Shown here piece by piece: positions 5,103 to 17,230 of a DNA stretch of 22,656 bases. The notes under the pieces are model-generated. The model saw nothing but the letters and a program-made list of their open reading frames with translations. It did not search any database and was not told the DNA's origin. Within the stretch, counting starts at the first letter, position 1; each line of letters opens with the position of its first letter. The stretch is taken from the IMG/VR virus record IMGVR_UViG_3300044960_000081, positions 1-22,656 of that record. One strand, written 5' to 3'. This DNA comes from a virus. Position numbers and translations under genes: made by a program.

Positions 5103-5133
5103 AGGGAGAGAGGGGTAAAATCCCTCTCTCCCT
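5103..5133 (+). terminator. Strong hairpin after the capsid gene (attenuating terminator or mRNA 3' end)
   Basis: AGGGAGAGAGGG (5103-5114) pairs perfectly with CCCTCTCTCCCT (5122-5133): a 12-bp stem with loop GTAAAAT. It lies 13 bases after the major capsid stop. The downstream stretch CTTGTCGTTCTC is only moderately T-rich, so termination is probably partial. It may instead protect the 3' end of capsid mRNA and keep capsid expression above that of the downstream genes. Confidence 0.75.
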
Positions 5134-5849: not shown

Positions 5850-7256
5850 ATGAAATTGGTCAATTGGCTCGTCCCTGTCTTTAGCGGAACAGTAGCCAAA
5901 ATTCGCATTAGCAGAGCGCCTATGCGTGAGGGAACTTACGAGCAGGTGGCTTTGTTTGATGCCTATTCGACCCCCACGGACTCGACCACCTTCATCACAG
6001 AATACCGTGATGAAGGTGGCGAGGACCGTGACTGGTATCTCATTACTTTTGTCGGTCCTGATGGGTCTGACATTGCTTCCGTAGGGCCTCACCCAGGACA
6101 AACTATTCATAATTCTCAGTATGAACTTCTCTTTCGCCTGAGGCACAAAATCTCAGATACTAAGGTTCCTTACGTCTTCAGCGATTGGGAACTTCTTGAA
6201 GAACTTGACCAAGCACTCCTTACGCATTCGCCCCGTAAGACATGGGAAGATTTGAATGACCAAGTTCCGATTAATCAGTCGGAGCTATTGCTAATCCTTT
6301 GGCTTGCAGTTTCACAAGTTGCGAAAATCTTGGCTACTGATAATGCCAAGTATTTTCCTCTTTCTATTGACGGCAAGTCTGTTGATAAAACTGTTCGAGT
6401 TGAGCAGTATCTTCGAATTTCGCAGGAATACTTAGAGCAATACACCATAAAAAAGGCCGAATGGAATCTTGGTCTCGTTGAGCGCTCTGGTGAGATTCAC
6501 GAAACCTACATGACTCGGCAGTCACTTACTACTGGACGTAGGACTCCCTTCACTCAAGCTAATCCTCCAGACAACATCATTATGTATCCTCCCACGCATC
6601 TCAACCCCACAACGGTTGATTTGGCGTGGAGCAAATGCAATGACCCTGAGTTTTACTACTACATAATTTTCCGTAGTAGAGAGCCTAACGTGCAGACTAG
6701 GCTCATTCGTGATGCTTATAACAAGCGCATTTCTCTGCATGATGACCCGATTGATTACCAAACGAACTACCTATGGGGTGGCGTTACCGTCCCTATCATC
6801 CAAATTTTCCGGAATAGCACAACAAATTGGATTGACCAGCAGAGTAACGTGCAGTTTCCTCAACAGCCTTTCCAGAGGCTTTACCCAGGTGAGACTTACT
6901 ACTATGTTGTCGTGGCTGTAAATAGGAACCTTCTGTTTAGCATCTCTAATGAAATTAAAGTTACCCTTCCACCGTTGAAGGCTCCTACCATTATGGCCCC
7001 CGTTCTGGCTTACGAGCAGTCGGTGGTCGTTAAAGGCACTACGGGTGCTTCCGTCAATCTTGAGAAGCAGGCCGGTGGTATCGGTCCCTGGGTTCCATTT
7101 GGCTCATTGACTATTACTGGAACTTTTGCTGATACGGTTCGATTTACAGGGGTGAATCTTCAGCCATTGGACGCTTTGCGAGCCAATATGACTTACTCTA
7201 TTCCTGGCTTTACGCCAATTGTTACAGAGTATAGCACTACTGTTGTGGTGCAGTGA
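5850..7256 (+). CDS. Putative head-tail connector with fibronectin-III-like domains
   Basis: This 468-residue protein has a mixed layout. Residues about 1-85 look like an FN3-type beta-sandwich (KIRISRAPMREGTYEQVAL, then DWYLITFVGPDG). Residues about 105-215 are helical (WELLEELDQALL, then SELLLILWLAVSQVAKIL), as in small connector/adaptor proteins. Residues about 240-375 are a second FN3-like domain (VDLAWSKCNDPEFYYYIIF, then GETYYYVVVAV). The last 90 form another Ig-like beta domain. The helical part fits a neck adaptor that binds the portal; the beta domains would project from the neck. The stop overlaps the next start (ATGA). Domain assignment is by eye. A whisker or collar protein is the main alternative. 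Confidence 0.5.
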   Translation: MKLVNWLVPVFSGTVAKIRISRAPMREGTYEQVALFDAYSTPTDSTTFITEYRDEGGEDRDWYLITFVGPDGSDIASVGPHPGQTIHNSQYELLFRLRHKISDTKVPYVFSDWELLEELDQALLTHSPRKTWEDLNDQVPINQSELLLILWLAVSQVAKILATDNAKYFPLSIDGKSVDKTVRVEQYLRISQEYLEQYTIKKAEWNLGLVERSGEIHETYMTRQSLTTGRRTPFTQANPPDNIIMYPPTHLNPTTVDLAWSKCNDPEFYYYIIFRSREPNVQTRLIRDAYNKRISLHDDPIDYQTNYLWGGVTVPIIQIFRNSTTNWIDQQSNVQFPQQPFQRLYPGETYYYVVVAVNRNLLFSISNEIKVTLPPLKAPTIMAPVLAYEQSVVVKGTTGASVNLEKQAGGIGPWVPFGSLTITGTFADTVRFTGVNLQPLDALRANMTYSIPGFTPIVTEYSTTVVVQ

Positions 7257-7789
7257 TGCCTAGAGGTATGAGAGGCTACTCAGTTAGGACGGCACTTAGT
7301 TGTGACGTTCCAGAGACAGTGGATGCTGAGACCACCGAAGTCATGCGTAATTGCATTGACAAGGTGGAGCGTGAGTTTTACCGCCCCGTTCAGTTTCTGC
7401 GCCTCAAGGATGAGTCTAAAGACGACCTCTACCAGGAGAACGCCTTTAAGGAGTATGCCCCTATCGCTGTGGTTCCTTGTAATATCATCAATAACCCGCA
7501 GGCACTTTCCTACCTGCCCATTGGTATTAGAGAGCAATCGGATGTTGCTCTTGAGATGGCTGAGATTGAGCTTGAGCGTCTTGGCTATAAAATTGATACT
7601 GGTAGAGACATCTTTATTGTTGATGGGATTAGATACAAAATTATCTTCAACAACTCTAAAGATATTATTAAGGACGTCTACGTCAACCGTTTGGTGACTG
7701 GACAGAATATGAACACCCTTCAGGTTCCCAACGAACCGGCGTCACCTAGTCGTGCCACCGTTGAGAAGCCGTTTGAGGATTTACCGTAA
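7256..7789 (+). CDS. Putative head-closure (stopper) protein
   Basis: The protein has 177 residues from ATG 7256, whose ATG overlaps the previous TGA; a GTG at 7253 is in frame but less likely. The middle has the feel of head-closure/stopper proteins of the SPP1 gp16 type: DLYQENAFKEYAPIAVVPC, a long pairing region, then DTGRDIFIVDGIRYKIIF, like the 'GD-dG-Y-V' signature of the family. Such a ring seals the portal channel and gives the tail its docking surface. Gene order (connector, closure, completion, terminator, sheath) supports this. The last 20 residues are Pro/Ser-rich and probably disordered. Family membership is inferred. Confidence 0.5.
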   Translation: MPRGMRGYSVRTALSCDVPETVDAETTEVMRNCIDKVEREFYRPVQFLRLKDESKDDLYQENAFKEYAPIAVVPCNIINNPQALSYLPIGIREQSDVALEMAEIELERLGYKIDTGRDIFIVDGIRYKIIFNNSKDIIKDVYVNRLVTGQNMNTLQVPNEPASPSRATVEKPFEDLP

Positions 7790-8268
7790 TGAGATACAGG
7801 GCTCGATTTATTAGGTCTAGCCAATTTAAAGACTGGCATGACCTTGAAAAGAGTTTGGGTAAATTCTCAGAAAAATACATGGAAATTACCATGAAGGTTC
7901 TTGATAAAATTGCTAATGAGTTCATTGAAATCGTAAAACACGATTTTGGTGCCCGTGGAGATGTATTCTCTACACTGAATGAAGAAGAGAGGAAGAAGTT
8001 TGAAGGGATTACAAACGAACTGATTATGTCATCTATCAAGGTTGATAAAGACAACTACGGCTATGTTGTTGCTGGTATCCCCGATGATTTTTTCATCAGG
8101 GGGCAGAGCATTATTCAGTTTCTCCTCAGTAAAGAATATGGACTTCTCGGTGACTCCCATATCGGTGTGTGGAGAAGTGCCTATTCTAAGATTGAGAAGA
8201 GGTTGGAATATATTCTTCGGGAAGAGTTTTCTAAAGTTAAGCTCCTTGATGCTGGTTTGGGGGAGTAA
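7789..8268 (+). CDS. Putative tail-completion/neck protein (HK97 gp10-like position)
   Basis: This 159-residue protein is largely helical and charged. An early amphipathic helix has EKYMEITMKVLDKIANEFIEIVK, consistent with the HK97 gp10-like group of small tail-completion proteins. A central part (YVVAGIPDDFFIRG) and a final Lys/Glu-rich helix follow. It starts at the last base of the preceding TAA and ends in the next ATG, so the three neck genes are translationally coupled. It probably joins tail to head. Sequence alone gives only weak support; the order of genes carries the call. Confidence 0.45.
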   Translation: MRYRARFIRSSQFKDWHDLEKSLGKFSEKYMEITMKVLDKIANEFIEIVKHDFGARGDVFSTLNEEERKKFEGITNELIMSSIKVDKDNYGYVVAGIPDDFFIRGQSIIQFLLSKEYGLLGDSHIGVWRSAYSKIEKRLEYILREEFSKVKLLDAGLGE

Positions 8269-10419: not shown

Positions 10420-10935
10420 ATGCCTAACGGTATCGGAACAGTTGACCCCTATCGCAATTTTAAGTTCATTGTGGAGATTAATGCTCCAAATGGGCAGTTT
10501 TTCAGTGCTGGTTTTATGCGCGTAACCGGTCTTACCAGGACTACGGATGTCATTGACTACCGTGAAGGTGGTGAGAACACCACGATGCACAAGCTTCCTG
10601 GCCAGACTAAGTTCGAGCAACTGACCTTCGAGCGTGGAGCCACCGATAACACTGATATGTATAACTGGGCTAAACAAACAGATAATTTCGACGGTGCCGG
10701 TGTTGCTGGATTGACAAGCTTTAACCCTGCCAGGGCTACTTTGACTATCAGCGTCCTTGACGGCGATAACAATGTTCTCGAAGCGTATGAGGTTCAACGT
10801 GCTTGGGTGTCAGAGTTCAACGCTGGTGAGTTCGATAGCAAGGGCAATGATGTGTTGATTGAGCGCATGGTGGTTCAGCATGAAGGCTACCGTCAAATCG
10901 GCACACGTCAGCCTAGTAACTCGGTGGTCCGATAG
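10420..10935 (+). CDS. Tail tube protein, T4 gp19 / contractile injection system type
   Basis: This 171-residue protein matches the T4 gp19-like tube family common to phages and extracellular contractile injection systems. Landmarks are DPYRNFKFIVEINA, then AGFMRVTGLTRTTDVIDYREG, then TMHKLPGQTKFEQLTFERG, a central helix TDMYNWAKQ and a final strand set. Hexameric rings stack to form the inner tube that carries DNA. It has GAGGAGG some 10 bases before the ATG. Ribosomes reach it directly after the sheath, in the usual sheath-then-tube order. Confidence 0.92.
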   Translation: MPNGIGTVDPYRNFKFIVEINAPNGQFFSAGFMRVTGLTRTTDVIDYREGGENTTMHKLPGQTKFEQLTFERGATDNTDMYNWAKQTDNFDGAGVAGLTSFNPARATLTISVLDGDNNVLEAYEVQRAWVSEFNAGEFDSKGNDVLIERMVVQHEGYRQIGTRQPSNSVVR

Positions 10936-11004: not shown

Positions 11005-11778
11005 ATGGCACTCGTTGAAGACACTAATCAGACAGAAACTCATGTTAAGCTTCCTCTGGGATACCAAGACAGAGAAGGTAACTGGCATCGTTACGCAGAT
11101 ATTCGTGAGATGACTGGTCGTGATGAAGAGGCTTTGGCTGACCCCCGTAATCGCAACAATGCGGCCAAAGCCATGACCAAGTTTCTTGCGTCCTGCGTGA
11201 CTAAGATTGGCTCTATCTCGCCTGTAACCGAAGAAATCATCAGGGATATGAGTATTGGTGACAGGGATTTTTTGATGGTAAAAATCCGTCAATTGTCCTT
11301 TGGGAATAAGGTCAAGATTGATTCTACCTGCCCTAACTGCTCCGCCAAACTTGGTCTTACTGTTAATCTTGATGAATTGGAGATTAAGAATCCCATTGGA
11401 GAAGATGAAGAGCCTACTTTGACTCATACAATTTCTCTCCCTAAGGGAGTAGAAATTGAAGGAAGACTCTACAAAGAAGCCGTCATTCGCACGTTGACTG
11501 GTGCCGACCTTGAGTTTGTTCTTCAGGATAAATACCGTCAGAATCCTGTTTTGATGGTATCGGCAACCATCCTGAAGAACCTTGTGAGTATCGGCCCTAA
11601 AAGAACTTTCACAATGGAAGACGTTCGTAACCTATCTTCTGCTGACCGTAGGGCAATCGGTGAGCAAGCTGGTAAGAAGATGCCTGCTCTCGATATGGAA
11701 GTGCACATCACCTGTTCCGTATGCAACCATGAGTTTTCTACAACTATGGATGCTAAAGATTTTTTCTCCATGAGTTAG
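11005..11778 (+). CDS. T4-type baseplate hub assembly chaperone / tail assembly chaperone, short (0-frame) form
   Basis: This 257-residue protein resembles the T4 baseplate hub assembly family (gp26/gp51-like): a mixed alpha/beta start with IREMTGRDEEAL, then a helical stretch with VTEEIIRDMSIGDRDFLMVKIRQ. It has two CxxC pairs, C109-P-N-C112 and C237-S-V-C240, which would form a four-cysteine zinc site. It lies between tube and tape measure, the position of tail assembly chaperones. RBS AGGAG at 10991-10995 favours ATG 11005 over the out-of-frame ATG at 10998. The frame ends at TAG 11776-11778, 9 bases after a slippery heptamer that allows a longer product. Confidence 0.8.
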   Translation: MALVEDTNQTETHVKLPLGYQDREGNWHRYADIREMTGRDEEALADPRNRNNAAKAMTKFLASCVTKIGSISPVTEEIIRDMSIGDRDFLMVKIRQLSFGNKVKIDSTCPNCSAKLGLTVNLDELEIKNPIGEDEEPTLTHTISLPKGVEIEGRLYKEAVIRTLTGADLEFVLQDKYRQNPVLMVSATILKNLVSIGPKRTFTMEDVRNLSSADRRAIGEQAGKKMPALDMEVHITCSVCNHEFSTTMDAKDFFSMS

Positions 11779-11930
11779 ACCCTGTATCCCTTAAGGAAGA
11801 AGTAGGTGTAATCGCCTATTTCTTTCATTGGGGTCTTGAAGAAATCATGGGTCTAACTAAAAAAGAAAGGAAATACTGGACAGACTTTATTCTGCGTATG
11901 GAAAAAGCAAAAGCAGGTGAGCGTCAATAA
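11005..11930 (+). CDS. Predicted -1 frameshift product of the assembly chaperone, long form
   Basis: After codon 254 (TTC 11764-11766) a -1 slip would continue in the frame CTC CAT GAG... from 11766 and add 54 residues, giving about 308. The added tail begins L-H-E-L-D and carries EVGVIAYFFHWGLEEI, then GLTKKERKYW. This looks like a compact conserved helical pair; tails of this HW...ER..W pattern are known after tail chaperones. The -1 frame has a stop at 11754-11756 and no ATG, GTG or TTG until ATG 11847, so the beginning of the tail can hardly be made except by frameshifting. It ends at TAA 11928-11930, 25 bases before the tape measure. Lambda G/GT is the functional precedent, though the family differs. 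Frameshift efficiency is unknown. Confidence 0.75.
11760..11766 (+). promoter_or_regulatory. -1 ribosomal frameshift slippery heptamer T-TTT-TTC
   Basis: The heptamer TTTTTTC matches the X-XXY-YYZ rule in the zero frame (GAT TTT TTC). Both tRNAs can re-pair after moving back one base (TTT TTT). The 0-frame stop TAG is 9 bases further on. A weak SD-like GGA lies about 10 bases upstream (11748-11750). The palindrome CCTTAAGG (11789-11796) lies downstream, but no strong hairpin is seen. Confidence 0.75.
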
Positions 11931-11955: not shown

Positions 11956-14193
11956 ATGCCAGCTAGTGAAGTCAAACAGCTAGGTATCGGCCTAAACTTT
12001 GACCACCAAAGAGCGGTTAAGAATATGGCTGAAGCTACAAAGGGCTTCACTAGTATGACGATTGCCGCAGAGGATTTCATTTCTGTAAGTCGTGATTTGA
12101 CTATCATGCAGGAAGGTCTCGCCAGGGTTGCTGAGGCTACCTTGGCTCCGTTCAAAGCCCTTGGTAAAACAATCTTTGATTTAGGTTCTCAAACTGAGAT
12201 GGCTTTGATTCGCCTTGGGATGTTTTCTAACACTCTCAAGCGGTCTGCTATTGATTCATTTCAAATTGCCCGCCAACAGGCTAAAGACACCCTCTTTTCA
12301 TTTGATGAGGTCATAGGCGCTGTTCAAGACTTTGCCGCTGCGGGCATTGATGCTCAAAAGTCTTTTGGCGAAGGGTTTGCTCATGCTGGTGGGCAAGTTG
12401 TTAAATACCAGAAGTCTTTGATTGGTGCAATTACAGACCTTGCTTCCGCCGCCAATATTGACCCCAACATAATTAAGGGCAATGTTCTGCAAGCCATTAT
12501 GAATGGTCGTATTGATTACCTTCAGCACTGGATTGGCCCACAAAAGACCATGTTGTTGCAGATGATGGGTGGGCTACAAGGGACTTTGCAACAAAAGACA
12601 GAGCAGATGACGAATTTCCTTGAGAAGTTCTACGGCGGTATGGGTGCAAAAGCAAACGCTACTTTTAAGGCTATCGTTTTAAACATCAAAGACATGGCTG
12701 GGGAAGTCATGTCATTTTTCTTAGATATTCAAAACCCCACAGCCGCCTATAGGCAAATGGTGGACTCCCTTTATGCCTCTTTCCAAAAAGTTCGCAAAGA
12801 ATACGAAAAGTTCATGGGTTATGGTGAATATAGGAATAAAGAGGAAAAAGAAGATTACCTTAAGAAGCGCCTTTCAGTTTTAGCTTCCGTAAAGGAGATA
12901 CTTTCTCCGTTTGTTTCCACGTTCAAGGCTATTGTGAACTCTATCGCAGACGCCACTAACGCCATTATTAATTTCACAGCTACTCATCCTAAATTAGTGG
13001 CTGTTCTTGGTAAAGGTATAGGCATTGCAGGCCTTCTTGCTACTGCTGCCGGTTTTGCTGTCGCTGCTACTTCGGCTTTTGTTGCTCTCTTTGGGGTTGT
13101 TAAGAATTTTATCGCCGCCTTTTCTGGCACCGGTGTAATGATGGCTGGTATCTTTATGTCTATTATGTTGGGGGTAGAGACTCTCAAAGAAGCTTGGAGG
13201 ACAAACTTTGGCAATATCAGAGATATTGTTGAGTCCGTAGGTAACACTGTAGTTAAATGGTGGAATAAAATTGAAGGGTTTTTTGGCGCTCTCTATGACA
13301 TCTTCAAGACAGCTTCTGGCGGTTTCGCTGTTGTGAGCAAGCGCCACTGGGATGCTCTTGCTGATAACCCTGGGCTTCAAAAATTCCTTATGCTTATTGG
13401 TAAGCTTATCAGTGATATGCGAGGATTTTTTAGTGGTGAACTTACTGGCCCTATTGCTGCCGCTAAAGCGTGGCTTACAGTTCTTGGCCCCGCAATTGCA
13501 GCAATCGGTGGGGTTATGGGTATTAGGGGCCTTTTAAAGATTTTTACAAGTGGCGGTAACGTAGCTTCTAGTGGGGGTGTTGTTGGTGGTGTTCTTGGTT
13601 CTATCTTTGGGATAAAGCAAGGCATGCCTGTTTTTGTTACTAACTGGCCTTCCGGTCTTGCGGCCCTTACTGCTTCAACAGCCGCTGAGCAGGTATCTAT
13701 ACTTTCTCGTTTGGTTACTTCAATTAATGGAACCAACAGCGTTCTCGGAAAGCTAGGATGGCTTGGTGCCGCACTTGGTGTAGGTTATGGCATCGGTAGC
13801 CTGATTGAGCCCTACATTCCTGGGTCTTCCTCCATGTCCAAAGAGGAATCTGATGCCGCATACGCCAAATCATACCCTAAGTCTCTTGGGATGGCCGCAT
13901 CGTTATTTACTGCTAAGAACCCTCTTACTCTCTCAGAAAGTGGCATAGATAAACAAGCTCTCAACAATGAGCTTATCCGCTATATCGGTGGGATTGCTCC
14001 TGGTCTGTCCTATGAAAAACGTAGTGCTATGGATAAGGCCGCTCAAGAGATTGTGAACGCTATTGATGAAGCTGTCAAAGCGGCTAGTAAGTCTGTTAGC
14101 CCAGATATGCGCAATGTTGGGTATATTGCTAAAGTTGAAATTTACGACGGACGCACTCCTTCCGTCCGTTTAGTTCCTGCTACTAGGCCGTAG
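11956..14193 (+). CDS. Tail tape measure protein
   Basis: This 745-residue protein follows the tail assembly chaperone and is the longest gene of the tail. It has long helical stretches in the first half. From about residue 348 to 410 there is a series of hydrophobic Ala/Gly/Val-rich segments (GIGIAGLLATAAGFAVAAT, then GVMMAGIFMSIMLGVE), with further ones near 505-530 and 596-617. Such segments can insert into the host membrane during DNA ejection. No lysozyme, CHAP or peptidase motif is visible. Protein length sets tail length, so this is a rather short contractile tail. GGAG stands before ATG 11956. Unlike capsid and sheath it uses AGG/AGA arginine codons at least eight times. Confidence 0.88.
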   Translation: MPASEVKQLGIGLNFDHQRAVKNMAEATKGFTSMTIAAEDFISVSRDLTIMQEGLARVAEATLAPFKALGKTIFDLGSQTEMALIRLGMFSNTLKRSAIDSFQIARQQAKDTLFSFDEVIGAVQDFAAAGIDAQKSFGEGFAHAGGQVVKYQKSLIGAITDLASAANIDPNIIKGNVLQAIMNGRIDYLQHWIGPQKTMLLQMMGGLQGTLQQKTEQMTNFLEKFYGGMGAKANATFKAIVLNIKDMAGEVMSFFLDIQNPTAAYRQMVDSLYASFQKVRKEYEKFMGYGEYRNKEEKEDYLKKRLSVLASVKEILSPFVSTFKAIVNSIADATNAIINFTATHPKLVAVLGKGIGIAGLLATAAGFAVAATSAFVALFGVVKNFIAAFSGTGVMMAGIFMSIMLGVETLKEAWRTNFGNIRDIVESVGNTVVKWWNKIEGFFGALYDIFKTASGGFAVVSKRHWDALADNPGLQKFLMLIGKLISDMRGFFSGELTGPIAAAKAWLTVLGPAIAAIGGVMGIRGLLKIFTSGGNVASSGGVVGGVLGSIFGIKQGMPVFVTNWPSGLAALTASTAAEQVSILSRLVTSINGTNSVLGKLGWLGAALGVGYGIGSLIEPYIPGSSSMSKEESDAAYAKSYPKSLGMAASLFTAKNPLTLSESGIDKQALNNELIRYIGGIAPGLSYEKRSAMDKAAQEIVNAIDEAVKAASKSVSPDMRNVGYIAKVEIYDGRTPSVRLVPATRP

Positions 14194-14203
14194 GGGGTAT
14201 GCC

Positions 14204-14914
14204 ATGGCTGGTAATAATGGGGTTAAGCCTCTCCCTGATGTCAGTGATTCCCTTTTGGTTAAAGGATTCATTGCCGATGTATTTTCGTCTCCCGCTATTA
14301 TTGTCGGCTTCAAGTTTAACCCTACCACTATTCAGGAATCTAAATCTACTAATTATGTTATGCAGCAGGTTCCTGGTCTTTCTTACAGTAAGTATCATTG
14401 GACAGGTGGCGGTGAGCATACACTGAGCTTTGAGCTTTTCCTTGATGGCTACGAGCAATCAACGTCCCTTGTTCCTGTCCCATTTCTTACTGCTGGTATT
14501 CATGGAGAGATTGCCAATCTTCAGCGTCTCATGCTTCCTCGTAGGTCTCCTACTGATGGGGCTTTCTTAAGCAGAGTTGGCAGTGCTTTTGCCATTGATG
14601 CTAATTCGTGGTCAGATAACAACGACCAGTTTAAGAAGCCTCCTACGGCTATATTTGGCTATGGCTCCATGCTCTATGATGTCATCATCAAAAATATGGT
14701 CATCAATACTGAGATGGTGTCTAGGAAACTCGACCCTGTTCGCGCCAGGGTCGCCATTCAGTTGACAGTCATTGATAACACTCCTTTGGCTGTTTACATG
14801 GATAAACTGAGAATTGCTCGGTCTCTTGTTGGTAGTGTCAGTAGTGCAGCTAAAACTATCGGTAGTTTGCTCACTAATGCATCAGCCCCTGGAAGGCTTA
14901 CTCCTGGTGGGTGA
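14204..14914 (+). CDS. Baseplate protein, CIS-tube-like N-terminal domain
   Basis: This 236-residue protein resembles the CIS-tube-type domain of contractile injection baseplates: IIVGFKFNPTTIQESKS, then WTGGGEHTLSFELFLDGYEQ, a strand order like that of tube proteins. In extracellular injection systems this domain is often fused to LysM; here LysM is the next gene. It probably forms the first ring below the tube or a hub adapter. After about residue 190 it has a helical, Ser/Ala-rich tail. The start is just after the tape measure stop. Its TGA is followed by the LysM ATG 14 bases later. Assignment by resemblance. Confidence 0.6.
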   Translation: MAGNNGVKPLPDVSDSLLVKGFIADVFSSPAIIVGFKFNPTTIQESKSTNYVMQQVPGLSYSKYHWTGGGEHTLSFELFLDGYEQSTSLVPVPFLTAGIHGEIANLQRLMLPRRSPTDGAFLSRVGSAFAIDANSWSDNNDQFKKPPTAIFGYGSMLYDVIIKNMVINTEMVSRKLDPVRARVAIQLTVIDNTPLAVYMDKLRIARSLVGSVSSAAKTIGSLLTNASAPGRLTPGG

Positions 14915-14919
14915 GGAGG
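14914..14919 (+). promoter_or_regulatory. Ribosome binding site that decides the LysM-protein start
   Basis: AGGAGG lies 9 bases before ATG 14929 and supports that start over the in-frame GTG at 14911, which overlaps the upstream gene and has no site of its own. Confidence 0.65.
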
Positions 14920-14928
14920 TCTTTTCTA

Positions 14929-15237
14929 ATGGCTATTTACAGAAACTCTAGATATGTTCAGACTACTTTGAGTTCTTGGACTCACCCTAGAAAAGGGCCT
15001 CAAATTAGTCTTGACCCATTTCAGATGGGAACCTTTTTTGACCAGACTGTGACAACTTACGTTGTCAAAGAGGGGGATACATTTGAATCTATCGCCTTCA
15101 AATTCTATGGCGATTCTACAAAGTGGTGGGCTATAGTTAAAGCTAATCGTGAGAATGAAGATATTTTCTTCCCTCTCGACTTAGCTGTTGGGACTAGGCT
15201 TTTTATTCCTCCTGCTTATGTAGTGAACAGGAGTTAA
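14929..15237 (+). CDS. LysM-domain baseplate protein (T4 gp53-like role)
   Basis: This 102-residue protein has a LysM domain at about residues 44-95: YVVKEGDTFESIAFKFYGDS, then WWAIVKANRENED, then LAVGTRLFIP. In phage baseplates LysM-carrying small proteins (T4 gp53, and the LysM part of the Afp7-type proteins) join the baseplate wedge or hub to the tube; binding to peptidoglycan is not implied. The N terminus is basic and likely flexible. The hub gene follows 1 base after the stop. Confidence 0.8.
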   Translation: MAIYRNSRYVQTTLSSWTHPRKGPQISLDPFQMGTFFDQTVTTYVVKEGDTFESIAFKFYGDSTKWWAIVKANRENEDIFFPLDLAVGTRLFIPPAYVVNRS

Positions 15238-15238
15238 C

Positions 15239-17230
15239 GTGGTCGCACTAAACGCTTCTGAGAATAATCCGTCTTTTCATTTTCTCAGTGAAGCCGCCAA
15301 GTCTCGGCTTTTTGCTAAGGCTCGTCACTACACTGTAGCTACCCCCTACTTTAATATCTGGATAGGTGGGCCTGCTCCTTCCGTTGTTACTAATATAGAC
15401 CGTATTGACGACGGTTTTGGAGGTGCTATCAGTAGTGCGGTTCAAACTGCGCGTAGCGCGCCTACTACGGCTGTCACTAAGAATACATCTTTTGATTCAA
15501 TCATTGGAATTTCCCCCGTTAGACAAGTTAAGAGCTTCAAGCAGGCTATTGAAGAGCTTGTGTTAAGTCAAAATCCTAAAATCTCTCAGGACGGCGTTCA
15601 ATACAAACAGCTTGTTAGTAACTTATTGTCCAATATTAAATCTGTGACTGTAGTTGATAGTGTCCTGACTACGGATACTTTCGACATTGTTATTCAAGAC
15701 CCAGACCTTATCTGGATTTCCAAACTTGCCCCAGCGTTCCTCAATCTTGGAGACATCATCAGTATTGAGCTTGGCTATGCTGAACCTTTCCAAGGCGAGC
15801 CCGGTTTCGAGAATAAAATTACAGGGCGCATCACTAGTGTTGATTTCAACGTGCCTCAAAACGGTGTCCCTGAAATTAAAATTCATGGGATGAATTTTTC
15901 TGAATATCTTCTCCGTCTTCCTTTTATCATAGAAGGCACACGCGGTAAGTGGGGTAAGGGGAATAAACAAATCTCTCCACCTACTGGAGACTTTGTTTAT
16001 TTTGCTAATAACAATTTAGATGGCTATCTTCGTGAAGTAGTCTTGCCCCGTTACGGTTTGACTGAAGGGCGCATTGATACTGGTTATACCAATAACCCCG
16101 TAGGAGTTTCCGGTCCTGTGAAAGTCAAAGAGCTTCCTGATTCTGTGCGCCATTTGGCAGGTAATGTGTTTGTTAAGAAGGGCAAAGTTAATGACTACGG
16201 CAATCTTTATGAAGCGTTGTCCTACTTAGCATCTACACTTAATTGTGTCTTCTTTGTGAAGGGAACTAATCTATATTTCTTTTCCCATGAAAACCTACAG
16301 ACTGCGCCACCTAGATTTCCTCTTCATTGGAGAAGTGGCCTTAAGAACCTTTTGAGTTTCAATGTCAGTAAGGTAGGACAAGATACCGCAGGGTTCACAA
16401 TGGGCGGTTACGACGAAAATGGCAGAACTCAAGATACTTTTATCGCTGATGCCGTTGATGCTGTTATTCAAAGTAACCTTGGTGAAATTAGAAAACGTAT
16501 TAATGAAAAAGCGAACTATACTTTAGAGGATGCATACGCAGATGCTAGGAAAAACCCTGTTCTTAGTCAGATGATTCACGATTTACAGATTACTCCTGAG
16601 GAGTTCGCAGGCTATCTCAACATGAAAAAGAATGTTTTGGATAAGATGCGAGCGGCTGACTATCGGGTAAATCTAAAGACTGGTGAGAAAGTTTTGCTCC
16701 CTATGGCCTCTGTTAAAGGCCCTCCTGGTGAAGGGGGTGAACGAGACTTGGGTGCAGATTCAGGAGAAAAAATACGTAGGCTTCTTTATTTTGTGGATGC
16801 TCAAGCAACCGCTCTTGGTGATATTGAGCTTCGTGCTGGAACAAAGGTGGCTGTCTCCATTACTGGAGAAGACACTACTCCAGTAGTTCATTCAGGCATC
16901 TCAGGCACAAGCATTGATGGGCCTTGGTATTTGCATGAAGTTCAGCACACTATCACGCATGAGGGCGGGTATAAGTGCGACCTTACCTTGAAAAAATACT
17001 GGGATGTCATCCCTGCTAATGCGGCAAGAGACGCTAACGCTACTGCCATTACTGGTGACCAGCATTATGCACTTAATTTGGAAACAAAACAGGCTAGTTC
17101 TGAGGTTCTTGAATCTGTCGTCTGGATTGACGCACCTGCCCCAACTGGTAACCCTATAAATACTGGCAGAGATGTCCGTAATCTGAGCAAAGGAGCTAAA
17201 GACGCTCTCAAGTTCAAGCCCGTAGAGTGA
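15239..17230 (+). CDS. Baseplate hub, phage late control D / gp27-like
   Basis: This 663-residue protein resembles the late control D/gp27 hub family. Early strands with LNLGDIISIELGYAEPF and KITGRITSVDFN occur in the first 220 residues, and a second domain with SYLASTLNCVFFV (about 325-345) follows. The C-terminal barrel ends in GPWYLHEVQHTITHEGG, then YKCDLTLKKYWD (about 560-585), the usual signature. The hub trimer accepts the tube above and the spike below. A helical insertion at about residues 415-488 (EIRKRINEKANYT..., NPVLSQMIHDLQITPEEF) is not typical of short hub versions. The start is GTG with AGGAG just before. No lysozyme domain is seen. Confidence 0.85.
   Translation: MVALNASENNPSFHFLSEAAKSRLFAKARHYTVATPYFNIWIGGPAPSVVTNIDRIDDGFGGAISSAVQTARSAPTTAVTKNTSFDSIIGISPVRQVKSFKQAIEELVLSQNPKISQDGVQYKQLVSNLLSNIKSVTVVDSVLTTDTFDIVIQDPDLIWISKLAPAFLNLGDIISIELGYAEPFQGEPGFENKITGRITSVDFNVPQNGVPEIKIHGMNFSEYLLRLPFIIEGTRGKWGKGNKQISPPTGDFVYFANNNLDGYLREVVLPRYGLTEGRIDTGYTNNPVGVSGPVKVKELPDSVRHLAGNVFVKKGKVNDYGNLYEALSYLASTLNCVFFVKGTNLYFFSHENLQTAPPRFPLHWRSGLKNLLSFNVSKVGQDTAGFTMGGYDENGRTQDTFIADAVDAVIQSNLGEIRKRINEKANYTLEDAYADARKNPVLSQMIHDLQITPEEFAGYLNMKKNVLDKMRAADYRVNLKTGEKVLLPMASVKGPPGEGGERDLGADSGEKIRRLLYFVDAQATALGDIELRAGTKVAVSITGEDTTPVVHSGISGTSIDGPWYLHEVQHTITHEGGYKCDLTLKKYWDVIPANAARDANATAITGDQHYALNLETKQASSEVLESVVWIDAPAPTGNPINTGRDVRNLSKGAKDALKFKPVE

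Follow-up and report, generated by a model that had tools for sequence, protein, structure and literature searches.

A predicted programmed −1 frameshift in a T4-type tail assembly chaperone gene of a contractile-tailed phage, and a probable counterpart in contractile injection systems

The window analyzed here, a whole 22,656-base virus record read on one strand, contained a gene for a tail assembly chaperone that was preceded by a GGAG ribosome-binding site and placed between the genes for a tail tube protein and a tape measure protein (Table 1). The zero frame of this gene ended with GCT AAA GAT TTT TTC TCC ATG AGT TAG and encoded a protein of 257 aa, and the fusion of the zero frame to a tail encoded in the −1 frame corresponded to a protein of 308 aa. 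The perfect slippery heptamer 9 bases ahead of the stop, as proposed in the original prediction, was confirmed (TTTTTTC, then TAG), as were the 54 open codons of the −1 frame and the stop upstream at 11754. The position between tube and tape measure genes had been likened to that of lambda G/GT, and the PF06841 and phrog_8125 matches of the neighboring genes agreed with this. Both this position and the combination of a heptamer near the stop with a −1 extension lacking its own start are features by which the lambda G/GT class is recognized. No Shine-Dalgarno-like stimulator was seen 5' of the heptamer.

Table 1. Coordinates of the chaperone gene, its neighbors, and the elements of the predicted frameshift site in the window.
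Feature	Position	Strand	Remarks
Tail tube protein, gp19 family (upstream neighbor)	10420-10935	+	PF06841, E 1e-35
Zero-frame tail assembly chaperone, short form (G/TAC-N equivalent)	11005-11778	+	PF12322, phrog_150
TAA closing the −1 frame just 5' of the heptamer	11754-11756	+	
Slippery heptamer T-TTT-TTC	11760-11766	+	X-XXY-YYZ register; kept in homologues
−1 tail, 54 codons and stop	11766-11930	+	Codons 11766-11927, TAA 11928-11930; T-like domain of the 308-aa long form
Predicted stimulatory RNA structure	11773-11858	+	Outer stem 11773-11784/11846-11858, inner stem 11795-11808/11813-11826
Zero-frame stop TAG	11776-11778	+	9 bases past the heptamer
Tape measure protein (downstream neighbor)	11956-14193	+	phrog_8125, E 3e-7 (tail length tape measure protein)

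The 6,799 codons of the window contained 25 in-frame X-XXY-YYZ heptamers, and only the one at 11760-11766 combined proximity to a stop with a long extension distinct from the gene annotated next. Another heptamer, T-TTT-TTG, lay inside the chaperone gene at 11268, where a −1 shift would lead to an 11-residue dead end. Elsewhere, T-TTG-GGG was found in frame at 8256-8268, near the end of ORF 7789-8268, the stop of which forms a TAATG overlap with the following start; frameshifting by −1 at 8256 would fuse two tail genes, but the site probably arose by chance.

The −1 tail might instead be a small gene in its own right, its start being used through re-initiation or internal initiation. Injection systems of haloarchaea have such an arrangement, and Vibrio phage D508 apparently does too, with a start overlapping the stop (ATGA, GTGA, or TAATG), and the tail is treated as a separate gene by the public annotations of many cyanophages. 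In the window, ATG, GTG, and TTG were all absent from the −1 frame between 11757 and 11846, in agreement with the earlier claim that no usable start precedes ATG 11847, and initiation at that ATG would lose the conserved core of the tail (EEV-IAY-HW). Further, a separate start would leave the conservation of the heptamer in homologous phages (86 of 86 ORFs; see below) unneeded, and we consider this explanation very unlikely.

The zero frame matched PF12322 (T4_baseplate) with an E-value of 4e-21 and 74-76 bits against a curated cut-off of 24.5, and more weakly, below cut-off, PF10109 (4e-4), the family of the P2 E and Mu 41/14 chaperones. The phrog_150 match covered residues 7-295 and thereby the entire fusion. 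Two CxxC pairs were present (C109/C112 and C237/C240), and all four cysteines were invariant across a seven-sequence phage alignment. The AlphaFold2 model of the chaperone was confident at about residues 11-120 (pLDDT about 90). Among solved structures, this N-terminal domain was closest to HK97 gp13 (2ob9; Z 7.0 over 90 residues) and YqbN (3klu; Z 6.5), followed by a next score of 3.5; the Z values of HK97 gp13 and YqbN are moderate, below 8, and are suggestive of a tail assembly chaperone fold of the short form. This resemblance came only from a second structure aligner; Foldseek gave no match against the PDB at E 0.001, and PDB sequence searches with the chaperone part and with the tail part gave no matches. 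The gene had been described as a T4 gp26/gp51-like four-cysteine chaperone, which the PF12322 match and the four cysteines upheld, whereas the contrast drawn with the lambda G/GT class did not stand, since the N-terminal domain was modeled like HK97 gp13 and YqbN.

The −1 tail alone matched PF20546 (DUF6760) just above threshold (27.2 bits against a cut-off of 27, E 4e-6), and the match within the fusion was 22.9 bits. All seven invariant residues of DUF6760 (E, V, A, Y, W, R, and W) were present in the tail, which together with the family match bore out the earlier impression of a compact, conserved-looking −1 tail. The match to PF06528 (P2 E'/GpE) reached 14.7 bits against a cut-off of 23, below membership. 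An alignment of DUF6760 that included the window tail gave a profile-profile probability of 92% with the P2 E' extension, compared with 0.2% for the reversed-sequence control. At the level of profiles, the window tail appears to resemble P2 E' though it is not a member of PF06528. Three helices made up the model of the tail (pLDDT 87). The predicted viral structure nearest to it was from phage ctgXL3, which was also the source of a top match to the zero frame. A tblastn search with only the 54-aa tail as query gave no phage match, and a search of viral_contigs with DUF6760 gave none either. A relation between the T4 gp51 tail and DUF6760 was considered too, but hhalign did not support it.

The predicted RNA structure downstream of the heptamer comprised an outer stem of 12 bp enclosing a 14-bp hairpin, with a spacer of 6 nt from the heptamer. 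The fold of 11767-11862, predicted from a single sequence, had a minimum free energy of −40.4 kcal/mol, compared with −19.6 kcal/mol for shuffled sequences (z −7.16; 0 of 200 shuffles equally stable), and the stretch had the lowest G+C-corrected energy among the 2,820 same-strand 96-nt stretches of the window. When viral_contigs was scanned for close relatives of the phage with the chaperone, tube, capsid, and sheath proteins, only relatives of the capsid protein were found, and their records carried no chaperone match. A strong downstream structure was also predicted in Atu_ph07 (z −7.0). The mean downstream z of 29 T4-like loci was −1.8, many homologues being weakly structured. A universal downstream stem was rejected because many homologues showed no unusual structure; with T4-like loci on average so weakly structured, stimulators appear to vary among lineages, and the stem is not a shared element. 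Elsewhere in the window, a very stable RNA structure was predicted at 5925-6085 within ORF 5850-7256 (z −5.3), and a perfect 14-bp G+C-rich hairpin, possibly a terminator or processing site, was present at 5103-5133 between the capsid gene and ORF 5135.

In homologues from distant phages, T-TTT-TTY was found at the homologous FF, with the tail in the −1 frame, in PA5oct, Atu_ph07, C48C1, S-SSM7, S-CRM01, S-N03, phi-Grn1, D479, and OC; the context was AGT TTT TTC in PA5oct, CAT TTT TTC in Atu_ph07, and GAT TTT TTT in C48C1. Two Rhizobium phages had a heptamer ending in TTA or TTG together with a −1 tail, and a huge uncultured phage had GGT TTT TTC some 25 codons ahead of the stop. The seven-sequence phage alignment was too divergent to serve as a scan profile, and marine T4-like ORFs were collected by a profile whose patterns fix the FF residues but not their codons. 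The marine T4-like viral ORFs with FF at their end numbered 86 distinct ones, and every one carried T-TTT-TTY at this terminal FF (51 TTTTTTC, 35 TTTTTTT, and none other); one locus ending in FLS (L142) was excluded from this count. The stop followed 0-3 codons past the heptamer, and each ORF had a −1 tail of 56-68 codons. The codon before the heptamer was AGT, TCT, GAT, GCT, AAT, or GGT, so that its wobble base was always T while the residue varied. As a control, other FF pairs in the same genes fitted the heptamer pattern in 3 of 59 cases. The 86 ORFs are related and do not represent 86 independent events; identity among them drops to about 34%, at which synonymous sites are saturated. The conservation of heptamer and −1 tail that the original prediction had named as a check was thus seen in all of these ORFs and in several jumbo phages, and the high synonymous variation across the heptamer that would have counted against it was replaced by the opposite, the preceding wobble T being kept in 86 of 86.

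These homologues also bear on two further explanations. RNA polymerase might slip on the T run and add a U, giving two mRNAs instead of one mRNA read in two frames and a nearly identical product. This run has 6 bases in the window and reaches 7-8 in some cyanophages, and six T is short for polymerase slippage. The last base of the heptamer varied among C, T, A, and G while the X-XXY-YYZ register was retained, so that the length of the T run is not the conserved feature, and a strong stem at ribosomal spacing favors slippage by the ribosome; slippage by the polymerase is highly improbable. Moreover, the window is a single metagenomic record and T runs are error-prone, as would suit one in-frame gene divided by faulty sequencing or assembly or by a recent indel. 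The chance of this is negligible: the identical split position recurs in over 90 independent genomes, and T4 retains a separate short gene, gp26, besides the long one.

Other phages differ from this arrangement. The same FF in gp26 of T4 and Cronus is written TTC TTT after G, with neither a heptamer nor a −1 tail, and the long form of T4 is encoded by the separate gene 51; gp51 covers phrog_150 to position 280 and gp26 to position 235. In the T4 locus (L012, 10803-12229), gp26 and gp51 lie head to head on opposite strands and match the same profile, gp51 with an extra tail region. The original prediction had listed a tail encoded as a separate gene as evidence against frameshifting; T4 has its long form as a gene of its own and the haloarchaeal tail has a start of its own, but neither has the heptamer, and both are taken as alternative solutions and not as refutations. 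The separate gp26 and gp51 of T4 are read naturally as a two-gene replacement of an ancestral frameshift. In the Streptomyces phages BRock, pSt2308, GiJojo, and LuckySocke, a homologous tail lies in the +1 frame just past GAA CTC TGA or TAA and is annotated as a separate gene or unannotated, which suggests that it may be reached by a +1 shift resembling that of prfB. Vibrio phage D508 (L034, about 2075-2100) has a degraded T run (TCA CTT TTC AAG TAA) with an ATG overlapping the stop (TAATG), as if re-initiation had taken the place of frameshifting.

Frameshifted phage tail chaperones are textbook knowledge, and the lambda G/GT heptamer is G-GGA-AAG, which differs from T-TTT-TTC of the window. 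Lambda G/GT is like the window gene in its position, in −1 slippage, and in giving two chaperones, one short and one long (Atkins et al., 2016; PMC5009743). In lambda, the tape measure is coated by the short form and linked to the tube by the long form, and the same review named T4 as the exception among frameshifted tail chaperones (PMC5009743). Passages of PMC10885494 and PMC12846349 credit Vladimirov, Gautam and Davidson (2022) with identifying T4 gp26/gp51 as tail assembly chaperones; the former, citing that study, mentions one short and one long chaperone gene in some T4-like phages, and the latter mentions poly-T slippery sites as already known in T4-like phages. The zero frame of the window gene belongs to the same family as T4-like gp26/gp51 (PF12322, phrog_150), and its members from T4-like cyanophages carry T-TTT-TTY with a −1 tail at the corresponding site. 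In T4, gp26 corresponds to the short form, and gp51 spans the short form and the tail in phrog_150; T4 differs in having two separate genes and no heptamer, and the window tail is DUF6760/P2 E'-like, whereas hhalign gave no similarity of DUF6760 to the gp51 tail. P2 E/E+E', annotated with a −1 frameshift, shares a similar heptamer (GGT TTT TTG, T-TTT-TTG vs T-TTT-TTC), a −1 tail with an FHW motif, and a gene directly ahead of the tape measure, whereas P2 E is short and without CxxC pairs and the window chaperone exceeds it in length and has a T4-type body. The window gene is a further, well-equipped case of the already known frameshifted chaperones.

Five independent lines, namely the heptamer and its frames, the stem, the family match of the tail, the conservation of the heptamer, and the gene position, point to a programmed −1 frameshift, by which this gene of a contractile-tailed phage very probably would yield a short and a long tail assembly chaperone. 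We infer slippage in the window phage, its rate, and the division of labor between the products as follows. The majority of ribosomes would pass T-TTT-TTC and terminate at TAG 11776, giving the 257-aa short form, while a minority would be delayed by the stem 6 nt downstream. On these, the two tRNA-Phe would re-pair one base back, from TTT TTC to TTT TTT, and enter the −1 frame, and the slipped ribosomes would complete the 308-aa long form with its helical, DUF6760/P2 E'-like C-terminal domain. If lambda G/GT and P2 E/E+E' are a guide, the tape measure protein may be coated by many short copies, and a few long copies may recruit tube subunits.

DUF6760 also pointed to contractile injection systems (eCIS). 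A scan with patterns confined to this domain gave 80 loci, distributed over cyanobacteria, Chloroflexota, Nitrospirota, Paenibacillus, archaea that produce or oxidise methane, Planctomycetota, and others. After the addition of three loci from plasmids, 79 distinct junctions were readable (L036-L118 and L203-L206, from bacterial and archaeal genomes and plasmids). Thereof, 73 had DUF6760 in the −1 frame relative to a short chaperone, with G-GGG-GRN 0-1 codons from the chaperone stop (5 codons in one case). The base ahead of GGG was G in 73 of 73 junctions, over 11 residues, against about 27% third-position G elsewhere, and the glycine codon of the motif was always GGG, against 23% elsewhere. 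No ATG, GTG, or TTG was present within 10 codons in the −1 frame of 69 of the 73. The remaining six junctions were haloarchaeal and lacked the motif, most of them having a start that overlapped or lay near the stop. Streptomyces, Paraburkholderia, and Rhizobium plasmid copies carried G-GGG-GRN too, with the frameshift case ambiguous in the Streptomyces and Rhizobium copies because a GTGA or ATGA start is also possible there.

The eCIS chaperone was homologous to the N-terminus of the window chaperone (hhalign, 98%). The eCIS pair of a 'phage tail assembly protein' and DUF6760 is like the window gene in joining a short CxxC chaperone to DUF6760 in the −1 frame at the stop, and unlike it in its slippery motif (G-GGG-GRN against T-TTT-TTC), in its single CxxC against two in the window chaperone, and in having no capsid genes. 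G-GGG-GAR departs from a perfect X-XXY-YYZ heptamer; the P-site tRNA could re-pair fully but the A-site tRNA only partly, so that slippage may mainly involve the P site. Judged from these junctions, DUF6760 probably represents the −1 tail of a frameshifted chaperone in most bacterial and methane-cycling archaeal eCIS, reached via G-GGG-GRN, with haloarchaea having switched to stop-start coupling. If so, phage-style G/GT chaperone production reaches eCIS with a non-standard slippery motif. The open-licence literature gave no hit for DUF6760 and, judged by titles and abstracts, nothing that links injection systems to frameshifting or to tail assembly chaperones; a frameshifted chaperone in eCIS is apparently unreported so far, and the extension to injection systems looks new.

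T4 gp26/gp51, P2 E/E', and eCIS DUF6760, treated apart so far, would be united in one layout, and public annotations, for phages and injection systems alike, would in many cases miss or cut the long chaperone. Because eCIS particles are now being developed into protein syringes, failure to notice a frameshifted assembly chaperone could have consequences when they are rebuilt in other hosts, in which frameshift rates may differ. The downstream stem, the DUF6760 identity of the tail, and the homologues were all additional to the original prediction. Within the window, proteins with CIS_tube (PF19266) and LysM were encoded after the tape measure gene at 14204-17230 in an eCIS-like baseplate layout, and the record also had portal and capsid genes.
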